A DNA stretch of 64,000 nt from Alphaproteobacteria bacterium (GTDB lineage Bacteria; Pseudomonadota; Alphaproteobacteria; ATCC43930; CGMCC-115725), in NCBI GenBank assembly GCA_019240125.1, contig JAFAYW010000152.1, positions 1 to 64,000 on the forward strand, in the 5' to 3' direction. Below, in pieces: positions 24,531 through 48,295 of this stretch. The notes beneath the pieces were generated by a model, which worked only from the letters and a program-made list of their open reading frames with translations, made no database searches and was not told the origin of the DNA. The position numbers and the translations under genes are program-made. Within the stretch, counting starts at the first letter, position 1, and each line of letters starts with the position of its first letter.

Positions 24531-24556
24531 GTCTCCCGGTCTCAAGCTAAATCCGA

Positions 24557-24580: not shown

Positions 24581-24604
24581 CTCTGTATCCGTTCGAGGTG
24601 GCCA

Positions 24605-26791: not shown

Positions 26792-26807
26792 CGGGCGAGA
26801 CGGACCT

Positions 26808-28893: not shown

Positions 28894-29244
28894 ATGGTCG
28901 GAGCGATCGCCGCGATGTCGTCGGTTCTGTCCGAGATGGAAAGCCTGGCATCGGCGGCAAGCGGCCCGAGCGCCAGCGCCGGGATGGTGGCGCCCGGCCT
29001 CGAAATTGCCCCGATGGGCGGTGCCTCGTTCTCGCAGATGCTGCATGCGGCTGTAGGGCAGCTCGATGACACGGTCGCGTCGGCGAGTGGGGCGGCGCAA
29101 TCCTTCGCCGCTGGCAATCACGACATCCCGCTCAGTGATGTCATGATCTCGATGGAACAGGCCAACATCGCGATGCAACTCGCCGCGAATGTGCGTGACA
29201 AGGTCACCGCGGCCTATACCAACGTCATGAATATGCCGGTCTGA
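28894..29244 (+). CDS. fliE: Flagellar hook-basal body protein FliE
   Basis: 116 residues. FliE joins the MS ring to the proximal rod. The conserved C-terminal block is SFSQMLHAAVGQLDDT, DIPLSDVMISMEQANIAMQL and VRDKVTAAYTNVMNMPV, which matches FliE closely. The N-terminus is a variable Ala/Ser-rich region. It is followed by fliF 16 bases downstream, the standard pairing. Confidence 0.94.
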   Translation: MVGAIAAMSSVLSEMESLASAASGPSASAGMVAPGLEIAPMGGASFSQMLHAAVGQLDDTVASASGAAQSFAAGNHDIPLSDVMISMEQANIAMQLAANVRDKVTAAYTNVMNMPV

Positions 29245-29260
29245 TCAACGCGGGCGCAGT

Positions 29261-31952: not shown

Positions 31953-31965
31953 GCCGGAGCCTCGA

Positions 31966-33816
31966 TTGTCTCGCCTCAGCATATCGCTTTCGAGCCAAAC
32001 GCCCGGCGCTTCCAGCGGCGCCAGCGGCAGTACGCACGCTGCTCGTCGGGGTGACGCGGTGCAAGGCTTTGCGGCAAAGCTTGGTGCGCCGACGCGCGCC
32101 GACACCGTGCCGCTCTCCGACCCAAATGACAGCGCACGCCTCGCGGCCACTGGCGGTTCAAATCGTAATGGAACGGCGCGCGGTCGCGCTGATTCTGACG
32201 CTACACCAACGGCGGACGCTGACATCCTCCCGGACGCTGCCATTCCCGTGCGCATCAGCGGTGCGACAAACTTAGCGAGCCAGCCGATGCCTCGCCATTC
32301 CCTCCCTGCCGATCAAGCGACCGATAACGCTGCGCCCGCGGGTTCATCGCCAACCACGCCACTACCGTCTGCCCCCGCCACATGTGGTGCTGCCCGTGAC
32401 GGCACCGGGGAAAGTGCCAGGGCTGCAACGCAGCACCTCGTGAGCGCCGGCGAAGTTTCACTGCCTCCAGGAGGGGCGAAAGTGAACGAACCCGCATGGT
32501 CCTCGGCGCACGACGCAATGGTCAGCGGTGCGATATCCGCTGATGCCACTGCAGGCGGCGAGAAGGTCAAGAGCGACGCCGGTAAGATCGGCCGGGAAGC
32601 TATGGGGCACGCCGATGCCACTGCAGGCGGCGAGAAGGTCAAGAGCGACGGCAGGAGCGCGCGACCCCCAACACCACTCCAGAGGCAGGCGAGCGACGTC
32701 GCGGCGGTGTCGGATATGGCCGCGACGATCTCCGCCAGCACGCCACTGCCGGCGATCGCCGCAGCCGATAAGGGCAAGATGGCGCAAGGTTCAACGCGCC
32801 AACCTGTCATTGGTGCCACCGCAGCGGTCTTCAACAAAGCCGCGGCGCCTGTGGCGATGGCGTCTGCAGCTTCCGTCCCGTCGAAGAATGTCGCGGGTGA
32901 CGGCTCGCCACCTAGGAGCGTCAGCGCGCTTGGCGAGAAAACCACTCAGTCCACGATGCAACACAAGGACAGCGCGGCGGATGGTCCCGCATCCCCTGTC
33001 GATGGCATGCAGGCCGCCAGTTCTCCGCAACCCGACCAGAGCGCGTTTTCGGCGGATGGCACAGCAGCACCTTCGAGCGGTGATGCCAGTAGCATCGCGA
33101 GTGTCGCCGGCAATCGCCCGCGACCCGCTTTGCTAGTGCAAGGCGATACCGGTGACACCTCCGCACCTCAACTCGGCCCTACGACGCTCGTCCCTGGCCT
33201 CGCTGGACCGATCGTGGCCCAGGCCGCGGCTGATCCGGCGGGCGACAATGCAATTCCGGATATCGATCCAAGACATTACTCGAGGGATGTGACGGCAGCC
33301 GATGCGGTATTGCCGTCGAGCGGCAATACCGGCGTCGCGGCGACAGGCACCATCAACGGTGCGACGCCAATGGCGGAGGTCACAGGGAGCTGGCAGCCGG
33401 CACGGATGGCAGTGGATGAGGTGACGGACCGGCTTGGCGGGCGGCTGGTTACCCTGGTGTCGAGCAACGAGCGGGAAATGGTCATTAATCTGCATCCGCC
33501 GGAGCTCGGTCAGCTCCTGGTGCGGGTCGCGGTCAATGGCCATAACGTATCCGCCTGGTTCGAGACGCCGCAGCCGCAAGCGCAGCAGGCGATCAGTCAG
33601 GCGATCGATCAGCTGCATAGCGACTTGGGCGGCGCCGGGTATGCCCTGACAGGGGCCTGGGTCGGGTCCGGTACCGGAAGCGGCGGTCCTGGGAATTCGG
33701 CGCCCATCGTGCCAATGGCGTCGCGGCGGTCTGCCGCGGCGGTCCGGTCCGCCGGCTCCCGATTGCTGGGAAGCGCCGCAAAAGCGGCGACCGCCTCGGT
33801 GAACATCTATGTCTGA
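31966..33816 (+). CDS. fliK: Flagellar hook-length control protein FliK
   Basis: 616 residues from a TTG at 31966 with GGAG six bases upstream; no ATG start fits. The first 480 residues are Ala/Ser/Thr/Pro-rich and disordered, with an in-frame duplication (DATAGGEKVKSD at 193-204 and 217-228). The C-terminal Flg_hook domain is clear at about 480-590: RLGGRLVTLVSSNEREMVIN, HPPELGQLLVRVAVNGHNVS and ETPQPQAQQAISQAIDQLHS. FliK measures the hook and switches export specificity by contacting FlhB. It overlaps fliM by eight bases. Confidence 0.85.
   Translation: MSRLSISLSSQTPGASSGASGSTHAARRGDAVQGFAAKLGAPTRADTVPLSDPNDSARLAATGGSNRNGTARGRADSDATPTADADILPDAAIPVRISGATNLASQPMPRHSLPADQATDNAAPAGSSPTTPLPSAPATCGAARDGTGESARAATQHLVSAGEVSLPPGGAKVNEPAWSSAHDAMVSGAISADATAGGEKVKSDAGKIGREAMGHADATAGGEKVKSDGRSARPPTPLQRQASDVAAVSDMAATISASTPLPAIAAADKGKMAQGSTRQPVIGATAAVFNKAAAPVAMASAASVPSKNVAGDGSPPRSVSALGEKTTQSTMQHKDSAADGPASPVDGMQAASSPQPDQSAFSADGTAAPSSGDASSIASVAGNRPRPALLVQGDTGDTSAPQLGPTTLVPGLAGPIVAQAAADPAGDNAIPDIDPRHYSRDVTAADAVLPSSGNTGVAATGTINGATPMAEVTGSWQPARMAVDEVTDRLGGRLVTLVSSNEREMVINLHPPELGQLLVRVAVNGHNVSAWFETPQPQAQQAISQAIDQLHSDLGGAGYALTGAWVGSGTGSGGPGNSAPIVPMASRRSAAAVRSAGSRLLGSAAKAATASVNIYV
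32542..32650 (+). repeat. In-frame 37-bp direct repeat inside fliK
   Basis: An identical 37-base block (starting GATGCCACTGCAGGCGGCGA) occurs at 32542-32578 and 32614-32650, with 72 bases between starts (24 codons). The repeat keeps the reading frame of fliK and encodes DATAGGEKVKSD twice. A recent duplication in the ruler region is likely. Confidence 0.9.
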
Positions 33817-34738
33817 CACGATTGTCCAGCTGCCGGGGGACGCGGTTCGGGTTTATGACCTGCTCGACGAGCGCAAGCGGTCGCGTGCCCGCCTGCCGAC
33901 GTTCGAACCGACCATGGAGCTGATCAATGATCGGTTCTGCCGGTATCTGCGGTCGGCCCTGCTGCACCATCTGCGGCGCCCTGTCGAGGTAAGCTGTGTT
34001 CGCATCGAATGCGTCAGTCACCGCGCCTTGCTCGAAGGCTTCAAGCTGCCGAGCTACATGACCTTGATTGGCCTGCGGCCGCTGCAAGGCGCGCTGATGA
34101 TCGAACTCGATGCACGTCTGGTAGCGGCGATCGTCGAGAGCCGGTTTGGCGGCGACGGGCGCTTTCCGGTGACAATTGCCAATCGCGAATTCAGCCCGGT
34201 TGAACAGAAATCAATGCGCCGCGTGACGGAGAGCATTCTGATGCAGCTTGCGACCGCTTGGGAGCCAGTCGGGCGCTTTGAGCCGGAGATCCTGCGCCAG
34301 GAGGTTAATCCGCAATTTGCCGGTTTCGCGGCGGTCGACGATACGATTGTCGTCAACGAGTTCGAGGTCAGGATCGAGCGGGCTGCCGGTCAGCTGGTTA
34401 TCGCCATCCCGTACTCGGCGCTGGAGCCGTTGCGCGATCAGCTCGTGGTCGACGCCCCCGAAGACTCGGCCGCGGACGATCTTCGCTGGCAGGAGACGCT
34501 GCGGGCGAGCGTGGCGCAAGCGGGGGTCACCCTGACAGCGGAACTGACGCGCATTGAGATCAGTGTAGCCGACCTGGTCTCGCTGCAACCCGGCAATGTG
34601 TTCGAGATGGACCGCAACACCACAGCCACCGTCATGGCCAACGGGATGCCGCTGTTTCGCGGTGCGTGGGGACGACGCGGGCGGACGATCGCGGTGCGCG
34701 TCGACGAGCACCTGGTTATCCCGCCAGCAGATCGGTGA
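33809..34738 (+). CDS. fliM: Flagellar motor switch protein FliM
   Basis: 309 residues. FliM is the C-ring protein that binds CheY-P and sets rotation direction. The middle (CheC-like) domain includes LPSYMTLIGLRPLQGALMIE, LDARLVAAIVESRFGGDGRF and FSPVEQKSMRRVTESILMQL. The C-terminal SpoA/FliN-like domain ends GAWGRRGRTIAVRVDEHLVI. The N-terminal CheY-binding LSQxEIDALL motif is not present in its usual form: the protein starts MSDTIVQLPGDAVRVYDLLD. It overlaps fliK. Confidence 0.92.
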   Translation: MSDTIVQLPGDAVRVYDLLDERKRSRARLPTFEPTMELINDRFCRYLRSALLHHLRRPVEVSCVRIECVSHRALLEGFKLPSYMTLIGLRPLQGALMIELDARLVAAIVESRFGGDGRFPVTIANREFSPVEQKSMRRVTESILMQLATAWEPVGRFEPEILRQEVNPQFAGFAAVDDTIVVNEFEVRIERAAGQLVIAIPYSALEPLRDQLVVDAPEDSAADDLRWQETLRASVAQAGVTLTAELTRIEISVADLVSLQPGNVFEMDRNTTATVMANGMPLFRGAWGRRGRTIAVRVDEHLVIPPADR

Positions 34739-34748
34739 ACGGCAAGTC

Positions 34749-35153
34749 ATGAAGTCCGAGCGGATCGCAGGCGTGCAAAGCACCATTAAGGGACCGCCCG
34801 CCAACCAACTGGCCTTTGCCAGTTTGGAAAACAACGGCGAGGGCACGGCGCTGGAAACGGCGACCGACGAGACGCCGGCTGGGGTTACACCGGCGCGCCT
34901 CGATCTCGTGATGGATGTGCCGGTGTGGCTCTCGGTCGAACTCGGCCGCACCGAGACGGCGATCAGAGAGGTCGTCGGGCTCAGCCGCGGTTCCGTCATC
35001 GAGCTGGATCGGGGGCCCGGCGCGCCACTGGATGTGCGGGTGAACGGAGTCCTGATCGGGCGCGGCGAGATCGTGCTGATCAACGAAGAGCGATTGGGGC
35101 TGCGGTTCCTGGAAGTGGTGAGCCCGTCGGAGCGGGTGAAGGGATCGGATTAG
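34749..35153 (+). CDS. fliN: Flagellar motor switch protein FliN
   Basis: 134 residues from the ATG at 34749. A longer frame upstream overlaps fliM and is not needed. An N-terminal variable region of about 50 residues precedes the SpoA domain: DLVMDVPVWLSVELGRTETA, IREVVGLSRGSVIELDRGPG and VNGVLIGRGEIVLINEERLG, typical for FliN. With FliM and FliG it forms the C ring and also docks the FliH-FliI export complex. The stop is ten bases from fliM. Confidence 0.93.
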   Translation: MKSERIAGVQSTIKGPPANQLAFASLENNGEGTALETATDETPAGVTPARLDLVMDVPVWLSVELGRTETAIREVVGLSRGSVIELDRGPGAPLDVRVNGVLIGRGEIVLINEERLGLRFLEVVSPSERVKGSD

Positions 35154-35204: not shown

Positions 35205-35489
35205 ATGCCGCAAGGTCGGGGGATCGAGTTGGGGTTGTCACAGGCCTCTCACGACGCGTTGCTGACGCTCGTCTATGTCGCCGGGCCGATGCTCTGCGTC
35301 ATAATGGTGATCGGCGTGATCGTCAGCGTCTTTCTGGCGGTAACGCAGCTGAATGAGCCGACGCTCAGCTTCGTGCCGAAATTTCTCGGCACGATCCTGG
35401 CGCTTGTGCTGCTGGGACCCTGGCTGCTGCATCATCTCGAGGAATTCACTATCCAGATCCTGACGGGTCTGCCCGGGATCGCGTCATGA
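35205..35489 (+). CDS. fliQ: Flagellar export-gate protein FliQ, copy 1 (upstream of flhA)
   Basis: 94 residues from the ATG at 35205 (a TTG at 35229 is also possible). FliQ is a two-span protein in the FliP5Q4R1 export gate. Hydrophobic spans: VYVAGPMLCVIMVIGVIVSV and FLGTILALVLLGPWLLHHLE, joined by the family-defining loop TQLNEPTLSFVPKF. This copy matches the canonical FliQ consensus better than the other one, at 44829. It sits between fliN and flhA, 13 bases before flhA, an order recalled from rhizobial loci. Confidence 0.9.
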   Translation: MPQGRGIELGLSQASHDALLTLVYVAGPMLCVIMVIGVIVSVFLAVTQLNEPTLSFVPKFLGTILALVLLGPWLLHHLEEFTIQILTGLPGIAS

Positions 35490-35502
35490 AGCCGAGCGCG
35501 AC

Positions 35503-37623
35503 ATGAACTCTGCGACCTCAGTCCTTACGCCGCGGCTATCGTTTGGCACGCTGCGGCAGAACCTGACCTCGATGGTCGGGCCGGCGGCCTTTGTCCTGAT
35601 CCTGGCGATGGTGATCGTGCCGTTGCCGCCGCTGGCGCTCGATTTTTTCTTTACCTTCAATATCTGCTTCGGGCTGATGATCCTGCTGGCGGCGCTGTAC
35701 ACGGCGAAGTCCACCGACTTTGCCGCGTTTCCGACGCTGCTGTTGATGACGACATTGTTGCGGTTGGCTCTCAATGTTGCCGCCGCGCGAGTCATCCTGC
35801 TTGACGGCTATATGGGCTCCGACGCCGCCGGAAGGGTCATCGAGTCATTCGGCGCGTTTGTCATCGGCGGCAATTACGCGGTCGGCATCGCGGTCTTTGC
35901 GATCCTGATCATCATCAATTTCGTCGTCATCACCAAAGGCGCCGGCCGCATCGCCGAGGTCGCGGCCCGGTTTGTGCTCGACGGCATGCCCGGCAAGCAG
36001 ATGGCGATCGACGCCGATCTGAACGCCGGGCTGATCAATCAGGAAGAGGCCACCAGGCGGCGTCAGGACGTGTCGCGCGAAGCTGATTTCTTCGGCGCGA
36101 TGGACGGCGCCAGCAAGTTTGTACGCGGTGACGCAGTGGCGGCCGTATTGATTCTGTTCATCAACTTGATCGGCGGCCTTATCATCGGCGTGTGGCAGCA
36201 CGAGCTGAGCCTTGCCGAGGCGGCGCAGACCTACACCCTGCTGACCGTAGGTGACGGGCTGGTGGCGCAAATCCCGGCGCTGGTGATTTCCTCGGCGGCG
36301 GGCGTCATCGTCAGCCGGGTGACGACCGGCCACGATGTTGGCGGCCAGATCATCTCGCAATTCGCCAATTATCCGAAAGCGTGGATGCTGGCGTCGGGAA
36401 TAGTCGGACTGTTCGGATTGATCCCGGGCATGCCGCATGTGCCGTTTGTCGCCTTTGCCGGTGTGCTTGGCGGTACCGGCTGGTGGATCGATCGCGAGCA
36501 GCGGCGAGCCGCGCAGGCGCCGCCCGCGCCACCACTGCCGCAGCCCGATAGCGGCGAGATCGATATCGGGGTCGTCGAACTGGTCGAACCGCTGGAAGTG
36601 CAGCTCGGTTATCGCCTCGTCGGATTGGTCAGCAATGAGCGCGACGGCGGCCTTCTGCGCCGCTTGCGCGCGGTGCGGCGGCAGGTGTCGCGTGAGTTCG
36701 GCTATCTCGTTCCGGTGGTCCATGTGCGCGACAATCCGGACCTGAAATCGACCGGCTATCGCATCCTGATCCATGGCGTCGAACGCGCGTCGGGCGAGGT
36801 GTTCCCCGATCGGCTGATGGCGATGTCGACCGGGCGCGTGTTGCGCGAGGTGCACGGCAGCCCGACGCGCGATCCGGTGTTTGGGCGTCCGGCTTTATGG
36901 GTCATGCCGGCGGCGGCCGAGGAGGCGCGCGGCTCGGGCTACACCGTGTTCGACGCGCCGGTGATCATCGCGACGCATTTCGAGCGCGTCATCCGCGAAA
37001 ACATTGACGGCTTGTTTGGGCGCGGCGAACTGGAGGCAGTGCTGAAGCATCTCGGCACGTTGATGCCGAAAATCGTCGAGGAATTGACACCCAAGGTGAT
37101 GTCGCTAACGGTCGTGCACAATGTGCTGACCGGCCTCCTCGCCGAACATGTGCCGATCCGTGATTTGCGCACCATCATCAGTACGCTGATCGAGGCTGGT
37201 GGCACGGCGCAGGAGCCGCGCGCGCTGCTGCAATTCGTCCGGCAGCGGCTTGGTGGCTTCATCGTCCAGACGCTGTTCGGCGCGATCGATGAATTGAAGG
37301 TGCTGGCCCTTGAGAGCGGGCTCGAGCGCCTGTTGCACGACGTCGTGAGGCTCGCCGCCAATAGCATCTCCTATGATGTCGAACCAACCCTGGCCGCCGA
37401 GGTGCAGATGCAGGCGGCCGCCAGCGCGGCACGGTTTGAGGCGGCGGGGTCGAACGCGGTGGTTCTGGTTCGGCCGGAATTGCGTGAGTGTGTCCTGCAC
37501 CTGCTGCGCCCGGTGCACCCGCGAATAAGCGTGCTCGGCTTTTCCGAAGTTCCACCGGCAAAGCGGATCAAGGTGGTCGAGCTGCTCGGCCGGGCTCCGG
37601 AGGGCCCCGCGCGTGCCGGATAA
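35503..37623 (+). CDS. flhA: Flagellar export apparatus protein FlhA
   Basis: 706 residues, the normal size. Eight membrane spans lie in the first 330 residues; the FHIPEP-family signature region follows FFGAMDGASKFVRGDAVAAV (near residue 200). The C-terminal cytoplasmic domain, which binds chaperone-substrate complexes, includes ARGSGYTVFDAPVIIATHFE and FIVQTLFGAIDELKVLALES. FlhA forms the nonameric ring of the export gate and uses proton motive force. It overlaps the start of fliA by 11 bases, and no flhF/flhG follows. Confidence 0.96.
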   Translation: MNSATSVLTPRLSFGTLRQNLTSMVGPAAFVLILAMVIVPLPPLALDFFFTFNICFGLMILLAALYTAKSTDFAAFPTLLLMTTLLRLALNVAAARVILLDGYMGSDAAGRVIESFGAFVIGGNYAVGIAVFAILIIINFVVITKGAGRIAEVAARFVLDGMPGKQMAIDADLNAGLINQEEATRRRQDVSREADFFGAMDGASKFVRGDAVAAVLILFINLIGGLIIGVWQHELSLAEAAQTYTLLTVGDGLVAQIPALVISSAAGVIVSRVTTGHDVGGQIISQFANYPKAWMLASGIVGLFGLIPGMPHVPFVAFAGVLGGTGWWIDREQRRAAQAPPAPPLPQPDSGEIDIGVVELVEPLEVQLGYRLVGLVSNERDGGLLRRLRAVRRQVSREFGYLVPVVHVRDNPDLKSTGYRILIHGVERASGEVFPDRLMAMSTGRVLREVHGSPTRDPVFGRPALWVMPAAAEEARGSGYTVFDAPVIIATHFERVIRENIDGLFGRGELEAVLKHLGTLMPKIVEELTPKVMSLTVVHNVLTGLLAEHVPIRDLRTIISTLIEAGGTAQEPRALLQFVRQRLGGFIVQTLFGAIDELKVLALESGLERLLHDVVRLAANSISYDVEPTLAAEVQMQAAASAARFEAAGSNAVVLVRPELRECVLHLLRPVHPRISVLGFSEVPPAKRIKVVELLGRAPEGPARAG

Positions 37624-38404
37624 TGGGATGCCGGATACCGTTGAGGCGCCGGTCATCGCTCGCGCCGCGGCGGAGTACGAGGCGGTGTCGACCGCTGGCC
37701 TTGACGAGAGCGAGGTGATCCGCCGCTACGCGCCGCTGGTGAAGAAAATCGCCACGCATCTCAAAGGCCGCCTGCCAGAGGCTGTGCAGGTCGACGATCT
37801 GTTCCAAGCCGGGCTGATCGCGGTGTTGCGCGTCATGCGCAGGGACGGAATGTCACTCGGCGGCATGCCGCCATTTTCGCTCCACCGCATCATCACCAAC
37901 GCGATGATCGACGAGGCCCGGCGTGACACCTGGGCGCCGGTGCGCACGGTGCGCCTGGCGCAGAACGCCGGTCGGGCGATGCGGCTGGTCAAGCAGCGCC
38001 TTGGCCGCGACGGTACCGATGAGGAAATCGCCGAAGCGATGGGCATCGCACTGGCCGATTACCACCAGCTGCTGGTCGAGGTTGCCGGCATAAGGCTGAC
38101 CCCGCTTGAGCGGTTCGAAGATGCCAACGAGCCACAGGCCGATGACGATCAGCATGCCGACCTCGATCGCAGCCAGATGCTCTCGGTGTTGACCGAGGCG
38201 GTCGCGTCACTGCCGGAGCGAGAGCGGACGATCGTCTCACTCTACTACGAGCACGAATTGAACATGGACGAGGTCGGTAAGGTGCTGGGCATCGACAAAT
38301 CGACGGTGTGCCGGGCGCATGGCCGCGCCTTGCTGAATTTGCGCGTTGCACTCGGCGACTGGGTGACGGCGCGGCACAGCATCAGCGGCGAGCGGGGAGA
38401 TTAG
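37613..38404 (+). CDS. fliA: Flagellar sigma factor FliA (sigma-28)
   Basis: 263 residues from a GTG at 37613 after GGAGGG (a start at ATG 37628 is possible). FliA directs RNA polymerase to late flagellar genes such as flagellin. Region 2 has RRYAPLVKKIATHLKGRLPE, VDDLFQAGLIAVLRVMRRDG and PPFSLHRIITNAMIDEARRD; region 3 has LVKQRLGRDGTDEEIAEAMG; region 4 has SLPERERTIVSLYYEHELNM and the helix-turn-helix MDEVGKVLGIDKSTVCRAHGRAL. It is embedded in the cluster between flhA and motA. No anti-sigma FlgM is seen in the window. Confidence 0.93.
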   Translation: MPDNGMPDTVEAPVIARAAAEYEAVSTAGLDESEVIRRYAPLVKKIATHLKGRLPEAVQVDDLFQAGLIAVLRVMRRDGMSLGGMPPFSLHRIITNAMIDEARRDTWAPVRTVRLAQNAGRAMRLVKQRLGRDGTDEEIAEAMGIALADYHQLLVEVAGIRLTPLERFEDANEPQADDDQHADLDRSQMLSVLTEAVASLPERERTIVSLYYEHELNMDEVGKVLGIDKSTVCRAHGRALLNLRVALGDWVTARHSISGERGD

Positions 38405-38407
38405 GCG

Positions 38408-39220
38408 GTGGATTTTCTCTCCATAGGCGGAATTATTCTGGCGTTCGCTTCGGTGCTGCTCACGATGGTGATCGATGGCGGCAATCTGGGTGCGCTGGTG
38501 CAGGATTCGGCTGCGCTGATTGTGTTCGGCGGCACCATCGGAGCCGTGTTGCTGCAAACCCCGCTCAGCGCCTTTTTGCGTGGCGTGAAGATGGGGTTGT
38601 GGGTCTTCCTTCCGCCCAAGGACGACCGTGCCGAGCAGCTTAAGAACGTGACAGACTGGCTGCGGATCGCGCGCCACCAGTTCGTACTGGCGCTCGACCC
38701 GGTGGCGGACCAGCAGACTGATCCGTTTATCCGCCAGGGGCTGCGCATGATCGTCGACGGCATCGAGGCGCCGCAAATCCGTACGATGCTCGAGGCGATC
38801 ATATCGACCCGAGCGCATGAGGAGATGCACGGCGCGGAGATGTATGAGGCGATGGGCGGATATGCCCCTACCGTCGGCATTCTCGGTGCTGTGATGGGCC
38901 TTATCACCGTGATGTCGCATCTTGACGATCCCTCCAAACTGGGCAGTGGCATCGCCACTGCGTTCGTCGCCACGGTGTACGGCGTTGCCTTTGCCAACCT
39001 GATCTGCCTGCCCATCGCCAGCAAACTGAAGTTTCACGTGCGCCGGCGGATACGCCGGCTGGAACTGATCGCCGAGGGGATGGTCGGCATCGCGATCCTC
39101 GAAAGCCCGCTGCAGCTCGAAATGAAATTGCGCGGCTATCTCGACGGGAACGCGATGGAAGCGCCGGAGCGCGACGGTGGGCGGGAGGCAGGTGACGTGT
39201 CGCCCGCGCCGGCCACGTGA
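38408..39220 (+). CDS. motA: Flagellar motor stator protein MotA
   Basis: 270 residues from a GTG at 38408. MotA with MotB forms the proton-driven stator. Visible: four membrane spans, with the last two around MYEAMGGYAPTVGILGAVMG (the TVGILGAVxG motif) and GIATAFVATVYGVAFANLIC; a large cytoplasmic loop between spans 2 and 3; and PIASKLKFHVRRRIRRLELI at the C-terminal tail. The gene follows fliA by three bases. Confidence 0.95.
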   Translation: MDFLSIGGIILAFASVLLTMVIDGGNLGALVQDSAALIVFGGTIGAVLLQTPLSAFLRGVKMGLWVFLPPKDDRAEQLKNVTDWLRIARHQFVLALDPVADQQTDPFIRQGLRMIVDGIEAPQIRTMLEAIISTRAHEEMHGAEMYEAMGGYAPTVGILGAVMGLITVMSHLDDPSKLGSGIATAFVATVYGVAFANLICLPIASKLKFHVRRRIRRLELIAEGMVGIAILESPLQLEMKLRGYLDGNAMEAPERDGGREAGDVSPAPAT

Positions 39221-39247
39221 CGGGCAGGCCGGAGACGGAGACATTCC

Positions 39248-40234
39248 ATGCATTTTGAGGAAAAGCCACCCAATCACGAGCGCTGGATCATCTCATACGC
39301 CGATTTCACGACGCTGCTGCTCGCCACCTTTGTCGTCATGTACGCGGTGTCGAGCATCAATTCGTCGAAGTTCCAGGAGATGGCCGAGGCATTCTCCACT
39401 GCCTTTATCGGCCGCACCGTCACCTTGGATTCGACCGGGCTTGGCGCGCCGAACAAAGCGCCGTTCGACTTTATGCCGTCGCCCGTGCACGTTCCGGTGG
39501 TGACCCGGCAGGAGGAGATCAAGAACCTGCCGATCGCTCTGCGCCAGGAGAATGCGCTGCGTGCCATGCCGCAGGGCGAAACCGACAAGACGGCGCCCGT
39601 CTTGAAACAAGGTGATTTCAAACTGCCGCCGATCGATATCCGCCGCCTGACCGAGCATCACGCGCGCGAACTCGATGCCGCGTATGAAAAGCTGACGCAG
39701 GCATTGTCTTCGCTGATCGGGAAGGGTGAGGTGCAGGTGTCATTGCAGAGTCTCGGCGTCGTCATCGACATCAACGACGTATTGCTGTTCAGCAGCGGCA
39801 AGGCGCAGCTGACCTCGGATGCGTTGCCGCTGATCGATCAGGTGGCCGGCATTTTGAAAGGGCTGCCGTATCAGATTCAGGTCAATGGCTTCACCGACAA
39901 CGCGCCGATTCATAATCCGCAATTCGATTCCAATTGGGATCTGTCGGCGACACGCGCGATCTCGGTGGTGAAACGGTTTGTCTCGGCCGGGGTCGACCCC
40001 GGTCTGATCGTCGGCGCAGGGTTTGGCGAGTATCACCCGGTCGTCTCCAACAGCACGCCAGAAGGCAAGGCGCAAAACCGCCGGGTATCGATTGTGGTGG
40101 TATCGCCCGCCGAGGATGAAAGCGCCATGAAGGTACGGTTGTTCGGTGGTGATGCGAAGCATGTTTCGACCAGTCCGATGCCGTCCGTAGGTGCAGTTAA
40201 ACGTGGCGATGCGCCGCTTGGCGCCGCCAGGTGA
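39248..40234 (+). CDS. motB: Flagellar motor stator protein MotB
   Basis: 328 residues. The N-terminus HERWIISYADFTTLLLATFV carries the proton-accepting aspartate in the YADF motif at the start of the single span. A periplasmic linker follows, then the OmpA-like peptidoglycan-binding domain with LPYQIQVNGFTDNAPIHNPQ and NWDLSATRAISVVKRFVSAG, GFGEYHP and QNRRVSIVV. The motAB pair is complete, anchoring the stator to the cell wall. Confidence 0.95.
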   Translation: MHFEEKPPNHERWIISYADFTTLLLATFVVMYAVSSINSSKFQEMAEAFSTAFIGRTVTLDSTGLGAPNKAPFDFMPSPVHVPVVTRQEEIKNLPIALRQENALRAMPQGETDKTAPVLKQGDFKLPPIDIRRLTEHHARELDAAYEKLTQALSSLIGKGEVQVSLQSLGVVIDINDVLLFSSGKAQLTSDALPLIDQVAGILKGLPYQIQVNGFTDNAPIHNPQFDSNWDLSATRAISVVKRFVSAGVDPGLIVGAGFGEYHPVVSNSTPEGKAQNRRVSIVVVSPAEDESAMKVRLFGGDAKHVSTSPMPSVGAVKRGDAPLGAAR

Positions 40235-40258
40235 GATTGCAGCGCGGCGACGCCTGCT

Positions 40259-40534
40259 ATGGCCGGCAAAAACGACAGTGCGAAAAAGCCCGCCAAATCC
40301 CGGCAGCCGGGTGCGTTGCGACCAGTATTGCTGGCGGGCGGTTTGGGTTTGCTGTGGTTTGCCGAGACACCCATGGCCGGGCTTACCGACCAAGGGCCGA
40401 TGTGGTCGGTCAGCGCGATCGTCGGTATTCGCCTCCTGGCGGATTTTGTCGGTGGCTGGGTCGTCGTGTCGCTGTTGCGGCTCGGTGTCGCGATCGCACG
40501 CTATGTGATCAGCCGCACCCGTGCTGCGGCCTAA
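40259..40534 (+). CDS. Small membrane protein between motB and fliH
   Basis: 91 residues: a basic N-terminus (MAGKNDSAKKPAKSRQPGAL), then two hydrophobic stretches (RPVLLAGGLGLLWFAETPMA and LADFVGGWVVVSLLRLGVAI). It matches no flagellar family I know. It sits in the operon 24 bases after motB and ends just before the fliH start. It could be a stator accessory or an assembly protein, inferred from place only. Confidence 0.6.
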   Translation: MAGKNDSAKKPAKSRQPGALRPVLLAGGLGLLWFAETPMAGLTDQGPMWSVSAIVGIRLLADFVGGWVVVSLLRLGVAIARYVISRTRAAA

Positions 40535-40544
40535 GGATCGCGAG

Positions 40545-41348
40545 GTGACAGCGCATCACGGCGCGCCCATGCCGTCGATCCTGCCATGGCAATATCCGTC
40601 GCTTGATGGCGAGGTGATCACGGAGCTGGTGCCGGAACCGGTGCCGCAGGAGCCACCAGCGGCACCCGTGCAAACCGCGCTGCCGCTCGAGATGGTAGCC
40701 GTCGAAGCACCCGCGGAGCCGGTCAGCCACGTGCTGCCGGACGCCAATCCTGCCACCGCCTATCATGAGGCGATCGAGCGCGGCCATGCGGAAGGATATG
40801 AGCGCGGGGTCGAGGAAGGCAGTATGGCCGCCTATGCCGCCGGCTTTGCCGAAGGCCGCGCGGCCGGTGAGGCGGCACTGGCGGGCCAGGTTGCCCGGCT
40901 TGTCTCTGTTATCGCAAACCTGTCGGCGCCGATCGCGACGTTCGACCGGGCGGTGGAGGATGCGGTCGTGGCTCTGGCGCTTGAGGTGGCACGTTGCGTC
41001 ATCGGGGGTGAGGTGGCGCGCTCGCGCGAATACCTCGTGCGGTTGGTGCACGAAGCGATCGCCAAGGTGCCGATCGGCATGACGCAACTGCGTCTGCTCC
41101 TGAACCCTGGCGACCTCGATCTGGTCCGCAAGCTGGCGCCTGACATCGAGGAGCACGGCGGCGTCCTGGTCGGCGACGACAACATCGAGGCGGGCGGCTG
41201 CGTGATTTTTGCTGATGTCGAAGGTGGTGCCGGCTCCGATCGGCGCTGGCGGTCGCGTAGTGCGGAGGGCGCGACACAGGTCGATCTGACACTGCCCTTC
41301 CGCTGGCGCGCTGTCCTGCAAAGCTTGTTTGAGGGGGCGGATGACTGA
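40545..41348 (+). CDS. fliH: Flagellar export ATPase regulator FliH
   Basis: 267 residues from a GTG at 40545 after AAGGATCGCGA (an open frame starts 24 bases further upstream). FliH binds and restrains FliI and links it to the C ring. The N-terminal SILPWQYPSLDG resembles the FliN-binding tip; the long middle has GHAEGYERGVEEGSMAAYAA with the glycine-spaced GxxxG repeats (AAGFAEGRAAGEAALAG) typical of FliH. The C-terminal domain has LALEVARCVIGGEVARSREY and LLLNPGDLDLVRKLAPDIEE. It overlaps fliI by eight bases. Confidence 0.85.
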   Translation: MTAHHGAPMPSILPWQYPSLDGEVITELVPEPVPQEPPAAPVQTALPLEMVAVEAPAEPVSHVLPDANPATAYHEAIERGHAEGYERGVEEGSMAAYAAGFAEGRAAGEAALAGQVARLVSVIANLSAPIATFDRAVEDAVVALALEVARCVIGGEVARSREYLVRLVHEAIAKVPIGMTQLRLLLNPGDLDLVRKLAPDIEEHGGVLVGDDNIEAGGCVIFADVEGGAGSDRRWRSRSAEGATQVDLTLPFRWRAVLQSLFEGADD

Positions 41349-42693
41349 GCTGCAGTCGTTCGTGGACACGCAACGGCTACTTGACGGGCTGGAACGCTAT
41401 CGCGCGCGGTTGGCCGGCAGGGGTAGCGGTGTGATTGTGCAAGGCAGCCTGATGCGCACCGTCGGCCTCGTCATGGAAGCGCGCGGTATCCATGTCGCGA
41501 TCGGCGAGCGCTGCTTTATCGAGAACGAAGATAAGCGCCTAGTCTCGGCCGAGGTCGTGGGCTTCGACGGCGACCGTGTGTTGTTGATGGCGGAGACCCG
41601 TGCCGATGGGCTGGCGCCGGGGGCACGGGTGATCCCCGGCGGCGGCACGATGGAAGTCGGTGTCGGGGACGAGCTGCTGGGTCGTGTCATCGACAGCAGC
41701 GGTCAGCCGATCGACGGGCACGGGCCGGTCAAATGCTCCGAGCGGCTGCCGCTGTTCGGGCATTCGATCAATCCGATGCGCCGCGCCCTGGTCGAGCAGC
41801 CGCTCGATGTCGGCGTGCGGGCGATCAACGCGCTGTTTACGGTCGGTCGCGGTGCGCGGCTCGGGCTGTTTGCCGGCAGCGGTGTCGGCAAGAGCGTGTT
41901 GCTCGGGATGATGGCGCGCTACACCAGCGCCGATGTTGTGGTGGTCGGCCTGATTGGCGAGCGCAGCCGCGAGGTGAAGGAGTTTGTCGAACGCATCCTT
42001 GGCGCCGGACTGAAGAAGGCGGTGGTGGTGGCCGCGCCAGCCAGCGACTCCGCTCTGGCGCGGGTGCACGGGGCGTACCGTGCGACCGCGATAGCCGAGT
42101 ATTTTCGTGACCGCGGGCAACACGTCCTGCTGCTGATGGATTCGCTGACACGGCTGGCCATGGCACAGCGCGAGATCGGCCTGGCAGTGGGTGAAATCCC
42201 CGCCAGCCGCGGCTATCCCGCGACGGTTTTCGGCCGTATTGCGTCCTTGTGCGAACGGGCCGGTAATGGCGCGGATGACAATGGCAGCATCACCGCCTTT
42301 TACACCGTGCTGATCGAAGCCGATGACCCGAACGACCCGATCGGTGACGCGGCGCGGTCGATCCTCGACGGCCATCTCGTATTGTCGCGAGGCTTGGCCG
42401 ATCGCGGCCATTTCCCGGCGATCGATGTCGGCGCGTCGGTGAGCCGGGTGATGCCGGCGGTCGTGCGGCGCGACCAGATCGTCCGGACGCAGCGGTTCAA
42501 GCAGCTTTACACGCGGTTCGAGGAAAGTCGCGACATGATCGCGATTGGTGGCTATCGCGCCGGTAACGATGCCGAACTCGATCGCGCCGTTGCGTTGCAA
42601 CCGACGATGGACGCCTTTCTTTGCCAGGATATGACCAGCGCCATAGCGCTCGCGGACAGTGTCGCTGCCCTGGCGGGAGTATTGGGTGAATGA
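41341..42693 (+). CDS. fliI: Flagellum-specific ATP synthase FliI
   Basis: 450 residues from the ATG at 41341. FliI is the hexameric ATPase of the flagellar export system, related to F1 beta. Walker A GLFAGSGVGKSVLLG at about 176-190; VVVGLIGERSREVKEFVERI; Walker B HVLLLMDSLTRLAMAQREIG near 260; and AVGEIPASRGYPATVFGRIA. All catalytic elements are intact. It is overlapped by fliJ (ATGA). Confidence 0.97.
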   Translation: MTELQSFVDTQRLLDGLERYRARLAGRGSGVIVQGSLMRTVGLVMEARGIHVAIGERCFIENEDKRLVSAEVVGFDGDRVLLMAETRADGLAPGARVIPGGGTMEVGVGDELLGRVIDSSGQPIDGHGPVKCSERLPLFGHSINPMRRALVEQPLDVGVRAINALFTVGRGARLGLFAGSGVGKSVLLGMMARYTSADVVVVGLIGERSREVKEFVERILGAGLKKAVVVAAPASDSALARVHGAYRATAIAEYFRDRGQHVLLLMDSLTRLAMAQREIGLAVGEIPASRGYPATVFGRIASLCERAGNGADDNGSITAFYTVLIEADDPNDPIGDAARSILDGHLVLSRGLADRGHFPAIDVGASVSRVMPAVVRRDQIVRTQRFKQLYTRFEESRDMIAIGGYRAGNDAELDRAVALQPTMDAFLCQDMTSAIALADSVAALAGVLGE

Positions 42694-43139
42694 CCACCAA
42701 CGCCTCGATGAAGATGCTGATCGGCTCGGTCGAGCAGCGCACCGAGGGGGCTCTGGCGACATGGCAGTCGATGCGCCAGGAGTGTCAGCAGGCGCTTGAC
42801 AAGCTGGAGGTGCTGAAGCGGCACCGCGAACGCTACAGCGAGCTTTTGCGCGGCGGGTTGCAGAACGGCATGTCGGGGTTTGCGACATCGGCTTATCTCG
42901 GCTTCATCAAGAAGATCGACGATGTCGTGCTGACGCAGCAAGGGGAAGTCATCCGTATCGAGGCGGCCTGCGCCCGCCAGTGGGAGCAGGTCGTCGCGCT
43001 GCGGCGCGAAAAGCGCACCTATGAGCTGCTCGGCGAGCGCAGCGAGACGCGCGAGCTGCAGACCGCGCTGCGGCGCAGCCAGCGAGAGATCGATGACGTG
43101 CTACAGCGCGCCGCAAGTCTGCCGGCGCTGTTTAATTGA
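42690..43139 (+). CDS. fliJ: Flagellar FliJ-type chaperone/stalk protein
   Basis: 149 residues, mostly charged helix (ECQQALDKLEVLKRHRERYS and AACARQWEQVVALRREKRTY). FliJ is the coiled-coil stalk in the FliI ring and an export chaperone escort. The family is poorly conserved; assignment rests on the ATGA overlap with fliI, the length and the antiparallel coiled-coil pattern. It ends with a short gap of 64 bases before fliL. Confidence 0.85.
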   Translation: MTTNASMKMLIGSVEQRTEGALATWQSMRQECQQALDKLEVLKRHRERYSELLRGGLQNGMSGFATSAYLGFIKKIDDVVLTQQGEVIRIEAACARQWEQVVALRREKRTYELLGERSETRELQTALRRSQREIDDVLQRAASLPALFN

Positions 43140-43203
43140 GCCCGATTGACATTAGCCCGCGCTTGACTGATTCCCACATGACGAAATTCGGAAATTTGTC
43201 CCC

Positions 43204-43740
43204 ATGAGTGATGCCAGCGGAGCAGTCGCCGCGGCGCCTTCCGCGAAGGGTGCCGGCAAGTCTAAAATGCTGATGCTGGTGGCCGCCGCGTTGCTCGCGG
43301 TCGGGTTGGGCGGCGGGGCCTATTGGTTTCTTGTCATGTCGAGGGCGCCTACCGGCGGCGGCGACGGCAAAGCAGCCGAAAGCCCACTCCCTTTCACCGT
43401 TGCGGTGAAGCCGTTTGTCGTCAGCATGGCGGGCAGTGACGGCACCTCGCATTTTGTGCAACTCGGGGTGAACCTGCAGGTGCCCGGCGCGCATGCCGGC
43501 GATGTCGTCACGACTATCCTGCCGCAATTGCAGGATGCGATGCGCCAGACCGTTCTGACGATGAAGTCCGATGACCTGCAGACCGTGCCGGGTATCAACA
43601 AGATGCGCGCCGCGATGCTGAGCCAGATCAACGAAGCGTTGGGCGAGGTGCTGGGCACAAAGCGGGTCACCGAGCTTTCTGGCGGCGACAAGATACCGGT
43701 GGTGCAGAACATCTTCTTCACGACGCTGATCGTCGAATAA
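43204..43740 (+). CDS. fliL: Flagellar stator-associated protein FliL
   Basis: 178 residues. A cytoplasmic N-terminus of about 20 residues (MSDASGAVAAAPSAKGAGKS), a single span MLMLVAAALLAVGLGGGAYW, then a periplasmic domain with FTVAVKPFVVSMAGSDGTSH, LPQLQDAMRQTVLTMKSDDL and EVLGTKRVTELSGGDKIPVV, ending VQNIFFTTLIVE. This matches FliL, which stiffens stators around MotAB. It is followed by fliO seven bases later. Confidence 0.92.
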   Translation: MSDASGAVAAAPSAKGAGKSKMLMLVAAALLAVGLGGGAYWFLVMSRAPTGGGDGKAAESPLPFTVAVKPFVVSMAGSDGTSHFVQLGVNLQVPGAHAGDVVTTILPQLQDAMRQTVLTMKSDDLQTVPGINKMRAAMLSQINEALGEVLGTKRVTELSGGDKIPVVQNIFFTTLIVE

Positions 43741-43747
43741 ACGGGTT

Positions 43748-44095
43748 GTGGCTGATCTCGTGCCCCTAGCGCCGGACTCTCTCAGCAGCCTGATCTTGGC
43801 AACCGGTGTTCTCGTCATTGTGCTGGGCGGTGCGGTTTGGCTGATGCGCCGCATGCGACCGGGTGCCGGCTGGGCGGGCGGGGGTGACTGCGTCGTCCTG
43901 CGCTCGTTGTCGCTGGGGCCGCGCGAGCGGCTGGTCGTGGTCGGGGTCGGCACCCGGCATCTTGTTCTCGGGGTTGCGAGCTCAAGCGTCACGCTCCTGT
44001 GCGAGCTCGACGGACCGTTGGCGCCGGCGGGATCAAGCGATCCCGCGTTTGGTCTGGCGGTGCGGCAAGCGGTCGATCGATGGCGCGGTCGTTAA
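43748..44095 (+). CDS. fliO: Flagellar export gate assembly protein FliO
   Basis: 115 residues from a GTG at 43748. It has one span LILATGVLVIVLGGAVWLMR and a small cytoplasmic domain with VLRSLSLGPRERLVVVGVGT and the FliO motif HLVLGVASSSVTLLCELDGP. FliO helps assemble FliP rings. The region overlaps the fliP start by 16 bases. FliO is poorly conserved but place and pattern agree. Confidence 0.88.
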   Translation: MADLVPLAPDSLSSLILATGVLVIVLGGAVWLMRRMRPGAGWAGGGDCVVLRSLSLGPRERLVVVGVGTRHLVLGVASSSVTLLCELDGPLAPAGSSDPAFGLAVRQAVDRWRGR

Positions 44096-44832
44096 CGGTT
44101 GCGGCGCTCGCCGCTGGCGGCGTGCTGCTGCTGAGCGGACTTGCGGCCCAGGCCGCCGAAATTCCGGCGCTCAACCTGCAGCCTGATGGGCAGGGCGGTC
44201 AGAACCTGACTGTGCCGGTGCAATTATTGATCGCGATGGCCGGGCTGGTGTTCCTGCCGGCCATCCTGCTGACGATGACATCCTTCACTCGCATCATCAT
44301 CGTGCTCTCGCTGCTGCGCCAGGCGCTGGGCCTTACACAGACGCCACCGAACCAGATTTTGATCGGGCTTGCGCTGTTCCTGACCTTGTTCGTGATGGGG
44401 CCGGTCTTCACCCAGGTGTCGAACGACGCCTTACAGCCGTTGCTCGATAACAAGATTTCGGCGACGGACGCGTTTGCCAAGGCGGAGGGACCATTCCGCG
44501 AGTTCATGGTTCGACAGACTCGCCGCGACGATCTCGGGCTGTTCCTCAAGCTGGCCGGCGGCGAGACATATGCCAACGCCAATGCGGTGCCGATGCGCAT
44601 CCTGATCCCGGCCTTTGTAACCTCGGAACTCAAGACCGGGTTCCAGATCGGCTTTCTGATCTTTCTGCCGTTTCTCGTCATCGACATCGTTGTTGCCGCG
44701 GTGATGATGTCGCTCGGCATGATGCTGTTATCGCCGACCAGCATTTCGTTGCCGCTCAAACTCGCGCTCTTCGTGCTGGTCAATGGCTGGACGCTGGTGA
44801 TCGGGTCGCTCGCCGAAGGCTTTGCCAAATGA
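44080..44832 (+). CDS. fliP: Flagellar export gate protein FliP
   Basis: 250 residues; start chosen at MARSLTVAALAAGGVLLLSG, which gives the signal peptide typical of FliP. The family core is complete: LLIAMAGLVFLPAILLTMTS, FTRIIIVLSLLRQALGLTQT, PPNQILIGLALFLTLFVMGP, LIPAFVTSELKTGFQIGFLI and GMMLLSPTSISLPLKLALFV. It forms the FliP5 ring of the export gate with FliQ and FliR. It overlaps fliQ copy 2 (ATGA). Confidence 0.96.
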   Translation: MARSLTVAALAAGGVLLLSGLAAQAAEIPALNLQPDGQGGQNLTVPVQLLIAMAGLVFLPAILLTMTSFTRIIIVLSLLRQALGLTQTPPNQILIGLALFLTLFVMGPVFTQVSNDALQPLLDNKISATDAFAKAEGPFREFMVRQTRRDDLGLFLKLAGGETYANANAVPMRILIPAFVTSELKTGFQIGFLIFLPFLVIDIVVAAVMMSLGMMLLSPTSISLPLKLALFVLVNGWTLVIGSLAEGFAK

Positions 44833-45098
44833 GCGAGGCGATGATCGTCGCGGCGGCGCAGGACATGCTGCGGCTGACGTTTCTCCTGGTCAGCCCCTTC
44901 CTGTTGATCGGGGTCGCTGCCAGCCTGTTGATCGGCCTGTTGCAGGCCAGCACCCGAATGAACGATTTGACCCTGAGTTTTGTGCCGCGATTTTTAGCCG
45001 TGCTGTTGCTGGCGTATCTGCTGTCGTCATGGGCGGGACAGCGCGTCGCCGCCTATATCGAGCGTTCCGCCGCGACGGCCGCGACGCTCGTCGACTGA
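44829..45098 (+). CDS. fliQ: Flagellar export-gate protein FliQ, copy 2 (within fliPQR)
   Basis: 89 residues, overlapping fliP by four bases, four bases before fliR: the textbook fliP-fliQ-fliR arrangement. Spans: LTFLLVSPFLLIGVAASLLI and FLAVLLLAYLLSSWAGQRVA, joined by STRMNDLTLSFVPRF. It deviates from the usual FliQ loop (TQ[IL]NExTLSF[IV]PK): R replaces Q, M-N-D replaces I/L-N-E, and R replaces K. It is thus distinct from copy 1 at 35205, which is closer to consensus. Either may be the main gate subunit. Confidence 0.9.
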   Translation: MSEAMIVAAAQDMLRLTFLLVSPFLLIGVAASLLIGLLQASTRMNDLTLSFVPRFLAVLLLAYLLSSWAGQRVAAYIERSAATAATLVD

Positions 45099-45102: not shown

Positions 45103-45888
45103 GTGCTGAGTTTCAGCGTGTCAGATGTCGCGCGCTGGGCTGGCGAGCTATTCTGGCCATTTCTGCGCGTATTGGGGCTCCTGTCGGTCGCGCCAGGCTT
45201 TAACTCGCCGCTGATCCCCGCGCGCGTCAAGGTAGCGTTGGCGTTGCTGACGGCCATTGTGCTGGCCGGCGGCCTCAAGCAATCGGCGCCGCTCGATGTG
45301 TCGTGGGACACGCTGTTGCTGTCGGTCGAGCAGGTGCTGGTCGGTCTCGCGATCGGTCTGGCGATGCAGCTGGTGATGACCGCAATGGCGCTCGCCGGCG
45401 AGTTTGTCGGCGTGCAGATGGGGTTTGGGATCGCCAGCCTGTTCGATCCGCAAAGCGGTTTCGAGGTGCCGGTCATGTCCAACTTCTTCAGCCTGACCGG
45501 CAGCGTGCTGTTCCTTGCGATGAACGGGCACCTGATCCTGCTCGGTGTCCTGATGAAAAGTTTTGACGCGGTGCCGATTGCGACCGGGATGGGGATCAGC
45601 GGCAGTGGCTGGCATGCGCTCGCGGCATCCGGCGCGATGCTGTTCCAGCTCGGGGTGTGGCTGGCGCTACCTGTGGTCGCGGTGCTGTTGGCGGTGCATC
45701 TCGCAGTGGCGCTGGTGTCGCGCGTCGCGCCGCAATTCAACATCATCTCGGTCGGGTTCGCGGTGTTTCTCTGGGTCGGCATTGCCGCGACGGTCGCGGT
45801 GGTGCCGCTGTTCGTGCCCGCGGTGCAGCACATGATCGAAGGCGGACTGGCGCTGGCAGGCGCCCTCCTGCAGCGGCCGCCGATATGA
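45103..45888 (+). CDS. fliR: Flagellar export gate protein FliR
   Basis: 261 residues from a GTG at 45103. Hydrophobic, with about six spans. Diagnostic stretches: FLRVLGLLSVAPGFNSPLIP, QLVMTAMALAGEFVGVQMGF, LFDPQSGFEVPVMSNFFSLT and VSRVAPQFNIISVGFAVFLW. FliR is the single-copy gate subunit beside FliP and FliQ. It overlaps flhB by four bases. Confidence 0.95.
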   Translation: MLSFSVSDVARWAGELFWPFLRVLGLLSVAPGFNSPLIPARVKVALALLTAIVLAGGLKQSAPLDVSWDTLLLSVEQVLVGLAIGLAMQLVMTAMALAGEFVGVQMGFGIASLFDPQSGFEVPVMSNFFSLTGSVLFLAMNGHLILLGVLMKSFDAVPIATGMGISGSGWHALAASGAMLFQLGVWLALPVVAVLLAVHLAVALVSRVAPQFNIISVGFAVFLWVGIAATVAVVPLFVPAVQHMIEGGLALAGALLQRPPI

Positions 45889-47021
45889 GCGACACATCCG
45901 GCGCCGACGCCCGCACCGAGCAGCCAACCGAGCGGCGGCTCGAAAAGGCGCGCGAGGAAGGCTCCATCGTGCGCGCCCATGGGGCCGCCGGCACCGCGGT
46001 GTTGCTGGCGGGAGCGTGCGTGCTGCTGGCCGGCGGCGGACGGATGGCCGAGCTGTTAAAGCTTAGCCTTGGCGCCGGGCTCGACCTGGCTCCCGATTAC
46101 ATGCGCGATCCGGACCGGCTGCTGGCCGCCACCGCGCGGGTCGTGCGACCGGGACTGACGGCGCTCGCCCCGTTCCTGCTGCTGATGGTGGTGGTGGCCT
46201 TTGTCGCCGACGCCGTGGTCGGCGGCTGGGTGATCTCCAGCCGACCGCTGATGCCAAACATGTCGCGCATCAACCCGCTGAGCGGGTTTCGCCGCCTGTT
46301 TTCGCAGGCGGCCTTGGCGGAAATCGTCAAGGCGCTGCTCAAGTTCATGGTGGTCGCGGGGGTGGCGGCCTGGCTGATCGCCGGCCGATTGCACGGCTTT
46401 CTGCATGTCGGTGCGGATACCTGGCCCGGCGCGGTGCAAGACGCGGCGGGGCTGATCGAGACTATCTTTCTAATTCTGGCCGCCTGCCTCGCCGCGGTAT
46501 CGCTCCTCGAGGTGCCCTACCAGCTGCACGCCTTTCGCGGTGAATTGAAGATGTCGCGGCAGGAGATCAAGGACGAGCAGCGGGAACTCGACGGCAGCCC
46601 GCAAACCCGCCGCCGCATCCGCGGCTTGCGATTGCGGCTGGCACGGATGCGGATGATGACCGAGGTGCCGAAAGCCGATGTCGTCATAATCAACCCCGAG
46701 CACTATGCGGCGGCGCTTCGCTACCGTGAAGGCGGAATGGCCGCTCCTCGGCTTGTCGCAAAGGGGACCGGAATGGTGGCGCTTCGTATCCGCACGGTCG
46801 CCGGGGAACACGGGGTGCCGGTCGTCGAGGTGCCACCTTTGGCGCGTTCGATCTGCCGCTTCGTCGAACTGGGTGATGAGATACCGGTCGGCCTCTACGG
46901 TGCTGTCGCCGAAGTGCTGGCCTATGTCTACCGGCTGCGCACCGCGCGGCAGGCGGGGCAGCCCTTGCCAGGGATGCCGGAGGACGGTCGGTTCGATCCT
47001 CCGACAGACTACGTTGTTTAG
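45885..47021 (+). CDS. flhB: Flagellar export switch protein FlhB
   Basis: 378 residues from the ATG at 45885. The N-terminus SGADARTEQPTERRLEKARE matches FlhB; four spans follow; then the cytoplasmic linker LKMSRQEIKDEQRELDGSPQ. The autocleavage site is normally N-P-T-H; here it is N270-P271-E272-H273 (NPEHYAAALRYREG). The rest of the domain (PRLVAKGTGMVALRIRTVAG, VPPLARSICRFVELGDEIPV) is normal. FlhB switches export from hook to filament proteins on contact with FliK. Glu at the third position may change cleavage rate. Confidence 0.94.
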   Translation: MSDTSGADARTEQPTERRLEKAREEGSIVRAHGAAGTAVLLAGACVLLAGGGRMAELLKLSLGAGLDLAPDYMRDPDRLLAATARVVRPGLTALAPFLLLMVVVAFVADAVVGGWVISSRPLMPNMSRINPLSGFRRLFSQAALAEIVKALLKFMVVAGVAAWLIAGRLHGFLHVGADTWPGAVQDAAGLIETIFLILAACLAAVSLLEVPYQLHAFRGELKMSRQEIKDEQRELDGSPQTRRRIRGLRLRLARMRMMTEVPKADVVIINPEHYAAALRYREGGMAAPRLVAKGTGMVALRIRTVAGEHGVPVVEVPPLARSICRFVELGDEIPVGLYGAVAEVLAYVYRLRTARQAGQPLPGMPEDGRFDPPTDYVV

Positions 47022-47030: not shown

Positions 47031-47066
47031 GCTGCGCCCAGTACCTACGCTGCGCCCAGTACCTGC
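47031..47066. repeat. Tandem 18-bp repeat at the 3' end of the flgN-like gene
   Basis: GCTGCGCCCAGTACCT occurs at 47031-47046 and 47049-47064, two tandem 18-bp units. On the minus strand each unit encodes VLGAA followed by TAG, so the last codons and stop of the flgN-like gene have been duplicated. The second copy lies between the stop and the end of flhB. Confidence 0.85.
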
Positions 47067-47398
47067 GAGGCGGCGGGATTGCGCTCCGACCCGTCGATCG
47101 TATAGGAGCGATGCAGGGGCTGCCGCCGCAAGACATCCAGCGCGCCGCGCAGATGTCGCAGCATCGCGGCGCAGATGATCGAGTTTTCGCGGTTGTAGCG
47201 ATCGAGCGAGGCGATCGCCTCTGCTGGCGCCCCGGGAGCACCGGCGCCCTGCCACGTGGCATCGATCTGCTCTGCCAGGACCAGCTTGCGATGCGCCAGC
47301 TCGGTGATCCGCTCCGGGTTGCCCGACAGAAGGGCGTCCCGCTCCTCGGTCAGCAGGTCGCGCAGCTCGTCGAGCAGCGCCGTGAATTCCATCAGCAT
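47045..47398 (-). CDS. flgN: FlgN-like flagellar export chaperone
   Basis: 117 residues, ATG at 47398 (a second ATG is two codons on). The pattern LLDELRDLLTEERDALLSGN, RITELAHRKLVLAEQIDATW and LDRYNRENSIICAAMLRHLR fits FlgN: a long helical hairpin with 'L..L...E...L..gd...l..l...K..ll..i', then a C-terminal helix. FlgN is the chaperone for hook-associated FlgK and FlgL. It converges on flhB and follows flgA by 26 bases on the same strand, as in enteric flgN-flgM-flgA, but without flgM. The tandem repeat overlaps its end. Confidence 0.75.
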   Translation of the reverse strand: MLMEFTALLDELRDLLTEERDALLSGNPERITELAHRKLVLAEQIDATWQGAGAPGAPAEAIASLDRYNRENSIICAAMLRHLRGALDVLRRQPLHRSYTIDGSERNPAASQVLGAA

Positions 47399-47424
47399 CT
47401 TATCTGCTGCCCGTTGCCCACGGT

Positions 47425-48138: not shown

Positions 48139-48295
48139 CGCAGGTTTCCTCTTGGCAAAATAACGCGACCAGCGGTAATGTACAGAAAAATGGAAATTCG
48201 GCAAGTTACGCGGAAATTCTTCAAGAGGTCGCGACGACGCAGATGGTGCGGATATACAGCATTATTGCCGGGACCGGTCCGGCCGAGGCGACGCG

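Follow-up and report, generated by a model that had tools for sequence, protein, structure and literature searches.

Two intact fliQ genes in one flagellar gene cluster, a long-conserved pair in an uncultured alphaproteobacterial lineage

Few components of type III secretion machines are as conserved as FliQ, and every solved gate, to our knowledge, uses a single FliQ gene. In these structures four FliQ subunits are arranged around FliP5-FliR, and FlhB takes a fifth place from which its loop contacts every FliQ (PMC7064499). Residues E46 and K54 (Salmonella numbering, used throughout for FliQ) form a salt bridge between FliQ subunits. Alanine changes at these positions nearly abolish motility, and E46D affects gating jointly with the M-loop of FliP, with which the bridge interacts (PMC8239009). 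The canonical FliPQR-FlhB gate of Salmonella, Vibrio and Pseudomonas (PMC7064499) shares with the locus described here FliO, FliP, FliQ, FliR, FlhB and FlhA, as well as the hairpin fold of FliQ and its TLSF-P-K/R loop. However, one FliQ gene fills all four places in the canonical gate, whereas the present locus carries two paralogues with differing interface residues and a FliP with MML in its M-loop.

Two other groups of flagellar systems invite comparison. The flagella of Acidithiobacillus and betaproteobacteria are the sister group by FlhA, share the fliPQR order and possess a FliP that is about 57 to 60% identical, but in the loci read they carry a single fliQ, within fliPQR, and none before flhA. 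The Rhodobacterales fla1, fla2 and fla3 clusters (PMC12363192) are likewise extra flagellar systems spread between alphaproteobacteria; they differ in that the non-fla1 loci sampled from family f23 have neither a double FliQ nor the fliN-fliQ-flhA arrangement, where the fla1 and fla2/3 labels are taken from FlhA scores and the published grouping rather than from its reference clusters.

The window, by which we mean the whole stretch of 64,000 nucleotides that was analyzed, is contig C320 of the alphaproteobacterial draft genome G000. A preliminary description had proposed from the sequence alone that one flagellar cluster in this window contains two distinct fliQ genes. Pfam matches and gene spacing defined a plus-strand block with the order fliE-fliF-fliG-fliK-fliM-fliN-fliQ1-flhA-sigma-motA-motB-fliH-fliI-fliJ-fliL-fliO-fliP-fliQ2-fliR-flhB, composed of the following features.

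28894 to 31952, plus strand: fliE, fliF and fliG, the start of the block (Pfam matches)
31813 to 33816, plus strand: fliK, hook-length control (PF02120, 49.9 bits)
33809 to 34738, plus strand: fliM (PF02154)
34596 to 35153, plus strand: fliN (PF01052)
35205 to 35489, plus strand: fliQ1, 94 aa, between fliN and flhA, consensus-like, with the E/K salt-bridge pair (PF01313, 82.9 bits)
35503 to 37623, plus strand: flhA (PF00771, 796.5 bits)
37613 to 43740, plus strand: sigma factor, motA, motB, fliH, fliI, fliJ and fliL, between flhA and fliO (Pfam matches)
43748 to 44095, plus strand: fliO (PF04347, 55.3 bits)
43999 to 44832, plus strand: fliP, M-loop GMML in place of GMMM (PF00813, 262 bits)
44829 to 45098, plus strand: fliQ2, 89 aa, within fliOPQR-flhB, divergent, with the R43/D46/R54 signature (PF01313, 61.7 bits)
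45103 to 45888, plus strand: fliR (PF01311, 205 bits)
45885 to 47021, plus strand: flhB, start at 45885 (PF01312, 346 bits)

The block is co-directional from fliE to flhB, and neighboring genes overlap or lie 3 to 64 bp apart, with the single exception of the 286 bp between motB and fliH. The overlap between fliP and fliQ2 is 4 bp. Both the neighbors named in the preliminary description (fliN-fliQ1-flhA and fliO-fliP-fliQ2-fliR-flhB) and the two FliQ loop sequences quoted there were confirmed. Directly upstream of fliE, window positions 23459 to 28888 hold exbB, a TonB-dependent receptor, exbD and tonB, together with an atypical PilZ protein. On the other side, the interval from flhB to flgB contains flgN-like and flgA genes on the minus strand (47045 to 48204); an open reading frame conserved on the plus strand at 47111 to 47833 is only their antisense.

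Both products belong to the FliQ family, with PF01313 scores above the Pfam cut-off of 25 bits. As the preliminary description noted, the fliPQR copy deviates more from the consensus. With the NCBIfam profiles, the flagellar FliQ model (TIGR01402) outscored the injectisome SctS model for FliQ1 (76.1 versus 53.1 bits) and for FliQ2 (61.1 versus 33.0 bits), both copies lying below the TIGR01402 equivalog cut-off of 88.9. Membership of the second FliQ in an injectisome was ruled out on these scores and by the absence of injectisome genes here. The AF2 model of FliQ2 (pLDDT 86) is a two-helix hairpin that superimposes on solved FliQ with TM values of 0.79 to 0.83, and its ten best matches in the PDB are all FliQ or SctS (TMq 0.72 to 0.83). 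FliQ1 was also predicted as two helices, at a lower confidence of 73. The concern that one copy might lack the FliQ fold was not borne out, both matching the family. FliQ1 may begin at TTG 35229 instead of ATG 35205, because relatives lack the N-terminal residues that the ATG start would add.

The same double arrangement, fliN-fliQ1-flhA and fliP-fliQ2-fliR, was found in genera g1, g9 and g11 of the family. In the genus-mate G002, a single 17.8-kb contig running from fliM to flgE (L038) carries both fliQ genes. Six further genomes have both copies with matching synteny on separate contigs, namely, G001, G003 and G007 of the same genus, G028 and G032 of g9, and G061 of g11; in G024 the fliQ2 side alone was seen, the contig ending inside flhA. 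Since the two copies are the only FliQ genes found in these seven genomes, they serve one flagellar system, G000 being the exception in that it holds a third FliQ. This pair, long conserved in the lineage, is not explained by an assembly artifact or contamination, given its presence on one contig of G002 and its recurrence in other metagenome-assembled genomes. Where the family's other genera possess FliQ, their flagellar cluster is a different one and contains just one FliQ in the loci read. G061 (loci L189, L190) is the only FliQ carrier among nine g11 genomes and its FlhA falls inside those of g1; acquisition of this cluster by transfer is possible.

The third FliQ of G000 is located on contig C322 (L036, L037), where its gene precedes flhA and is the only fliQ of a distinct, alpha-type flagellar cluster. 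The estimated contamination of this genome bin is 6.5%, and C322 may well belong to the same genome as the window because its tetranucleotide usage is close to that of the window (correlation, 0.97).

Purifying selection acts on both copies: the dN/dS ratio (NG86) was below 1 for FliQ1 and FliQ2 in every pair with computable dS, with values in the closest pairs of 0.12 for FliQ1 and 0.16 to 0.29 for FliQ2; distant pairs are near saturation, so that the direction alone is trustworthy. FliQ2 evolves somewhat faster than FliQ1. A pseudogene was ruled out by these ratios and by the open frames in all genomes, and close relatives retain both copies intact, so that the second copy does not look like the remnant for which the preliminary description had allowed.

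To evaluate how unusual the pair is, we screened with PF01313 two partly shared sets of 387 alphaproteobacterial and 397 Pseudomonadota genomes (approximately 780 sampled), and genomes with at least two FliQs were re-examined for gene position. Outside the family, two FliQs in one flagellar cluster were found only in G670 and G696, from one genus (g310) of another alphaproteobacterial family. All other extra FliQs belong to separate systems wherever they could be placed, which upholds the expectation of a single fliQ per flagellar system. Where the FliQs of a draft genome lie on more than one contig, the neighbors were checked in part, and a few more cases could be hidden; where readable, the neighbors in the multi-FliQ drafts of the class indicated separate systems or injectisomes. 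Two individual candidates were discarded, G091, in which an injectisome-like and a flagellar cluster lie side by side with one FliQ each, and G052 (f14), a class relative with a non-alpha-type FlhA and a single FliQ. Searches of the open-access literature turned up no paper that describes a fliQ duplication inside a single flagellar system.

The third flagellar system of g310 (L222, L228 to L232; contigs G696:C41 and G670:C7), which accompanies two other FliQ loci, is a counterpart in gene order. It shares fliM-fliN-fliQ-flhA-sigma-motA-motB-fliI, a second fliQ before fliR-flhB, D46 in this fliR-side FliQ, and an FlhA that is sister to that of the window clade. It differs in that its second FliQ is very divergent (about 30 bits), its fliR-flhB block is inverted, and its fliP lies about 30 kb away and encodes MIM in the M-loop. 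The pair is absent from the third genome of the genus, G1070, and the other non-fla1 loci of the family to which g310 belongs do not show this arrangement either.

The two copies differ precisely where FliQ subunits are joined. The loop reads TQxNE-(P/A)-T(L/I)SFVPKF in eight of eight FliQ1 sequences and (T/I/S/M)R(M/I)(N/T)DLTL(S/G)FVPR(F/L) in nine of nine FliQ2 sequences. FliQ1 has Q43, E46 and K54, keeping the salt-bridge residues, and FliQ2 has R43, D46 and R54, where the charges are retained and the residues changed. Among 151 aligned FliQ rows, of which 4 are FliR C termini caught by the profile, positions 46 and 54 are E/K in 132, D/R in 9 (all FliQ2), D/K in 5 and E/R in 1. The D/K rows are three injectisome SctS and the second copies of G670 and G696; neither the D/R pair nor R43 occurs in any sampled row outside FliQ2.

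The M-loop of FliP is GMML throughout the window clade, GMIM in g310, and GMMM in almost every flagellar relative with a single FliQ. The coincidence of MML with the FliQ2 signature would be a hint of co-adaptation, not a proof; the published correlation pairs D46 with polar M-loop variants, and MML is not polar. Elsewhere in the family, genus g2 (G018 and G008; L051 and L052) has GMVS in single-FliQ flagellar clusters.

These observations bear on whether the second gene is a redundant duplicate, retained for dosage or by a neutral ratchet and devoid of positional or gating specialization. Each gate contains several copies of the small FliQ protein, FliQ2 evolves somewhat faster than FliQ1, and the second copy of g310 is very degenerate, all of which suits such a duplicate. 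Nevertheless, the R/D/R signature is fixed in all nine FliQ2 sequences from three genera, whose genomes also have the altered FliP, and we regard simple redundancy as improbable.

The phylogeny speaks to origin. In the FlhA tree the window clade pairs with the g310 system (100/98), and the two together adjoin FlhA of Acidithiobacillus and betaproteobacteria (93/94), far from alpha-type FlhA; the g310 branch is long, and its grouping with fla2/3-type and f14 FlhA was not rejected (p 0.165). The preliminary description had considered a merged cluster of two origins. In the form evaluated here, FliQ1 would be a transferred alpha-type fliQ that arrived with a fliQ-flhA segment. The adjacency of fliQ and flhA does resemble the alpha-type order (fliE-fliQ-flhA), and the alpha-type cluster of the same genome likewise has fliQ right before flhA. 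Moreover, placing FliQ1 together with the alpha FliQs was not rejected by an AU test (p 0.27). However, the window FlhA is 54% identical to that of Acidithiobacillus versus 39% to the alpha-type FlhA of its own genome (contig C322), and in the FliQ tree FliQ1 and FliQ2, each a single clade (100/99 and 100/98, respectively), both fall outside the alpha FliQ group, itself supported at 98/86, though this tree is weakly resolved. With FlhA of the Acidithiobacillus/betaproteobacterial type and neither FliQ grouping with alpha-type FliQ, the cluster does not behave as an alpha-type one, and a merger was not borne out; we consider it very improbable. FliQ1 and FliQ2 as sisters were not rejected (p 0.49), and the 94 columns of the alignment are too few to show this relationship. 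By position, the flhA-side fliQ is the gained locus, because betaproteobacterial relatives carry their only fliQ within fliPQR; even so, the copy in fliPQR is the divergent one.

Taken as a whole, we lean slightly towards an explanation in which one export gate contains two paralogous FliQ subunits, an old pair forming a heteromeric belt in which FliQ2 and FliP changed together. The flagellar system would have entered the lineage from an Acidithiobacillus/betaproteobacterial-type flagellum, or the two would have a common origin; relatives of that flagellum have a single fliQ, located in fliPQR. The gain of another fliQ, next to flhA, would predate the divergence of the genera and probably also that of the lineage from g310-type systems. 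Afterwards, FliQ1 may have stayed standard while FliQ2 diverged and fixed R43, D46 and R54. Both proteins would then insert in the same FliP5-FliR scaffold and divide the four FliQ places between them. Mixed neighbors are chemically plausible, since D46-R54 and E46-K54 each retain a salt bridge and either copy could adjoin the other. The MML M-loop probably matched the altered bridge of FliQ2, which may have changed how tightly the gate closes.

A mixed belt is the simplest reading because one set of FliP, FliR, FlhB and FlhA accompanies both fliQ genes in one block. Among the ideas put forward in the preliminary description, a paralogue giving mixed gates survives best, with two intact genes in one system; the mixed gate itself, that is, joint assembly, preference for certain places and an effect on gating, we infer. 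The more specific proposal that the two ancient paralogues sit at fixed, different places around FliP5-FliR, with the M-gasket of FliP changed to match, is tentative, and we would not yet count on it. The same single set of partners has to be shared if FliQ1 and FliQ2 are instead alternative subunits, each forming a homogeneous gate at a different stage or under a different condition. Each copy does have a self-consistent bridge (E/K or D/R) and could form a ring alone, but a single co-directional block with short spacers would, judging from gene layout, argue for joint expression, and we find this alternative unlikely. It might also be that one paralogue fills all FliQ places and the other has a different role.

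Under the mixed-belt reading, the FliQ ring, thought of as made of identical subunits, may be mixed in these bacteria, in which a homomeric ring may have become heteromeric. A natural two-FliQ system that differs at the residues joining FliQ to FliQ offers a way to ask if all FliQ places are equivalent and how FliQ packing controls FliP gating. If true, a FliQ belt with fixed places would be a bacterial parallel to the specialization of ring paralogues in the V-ATPase.
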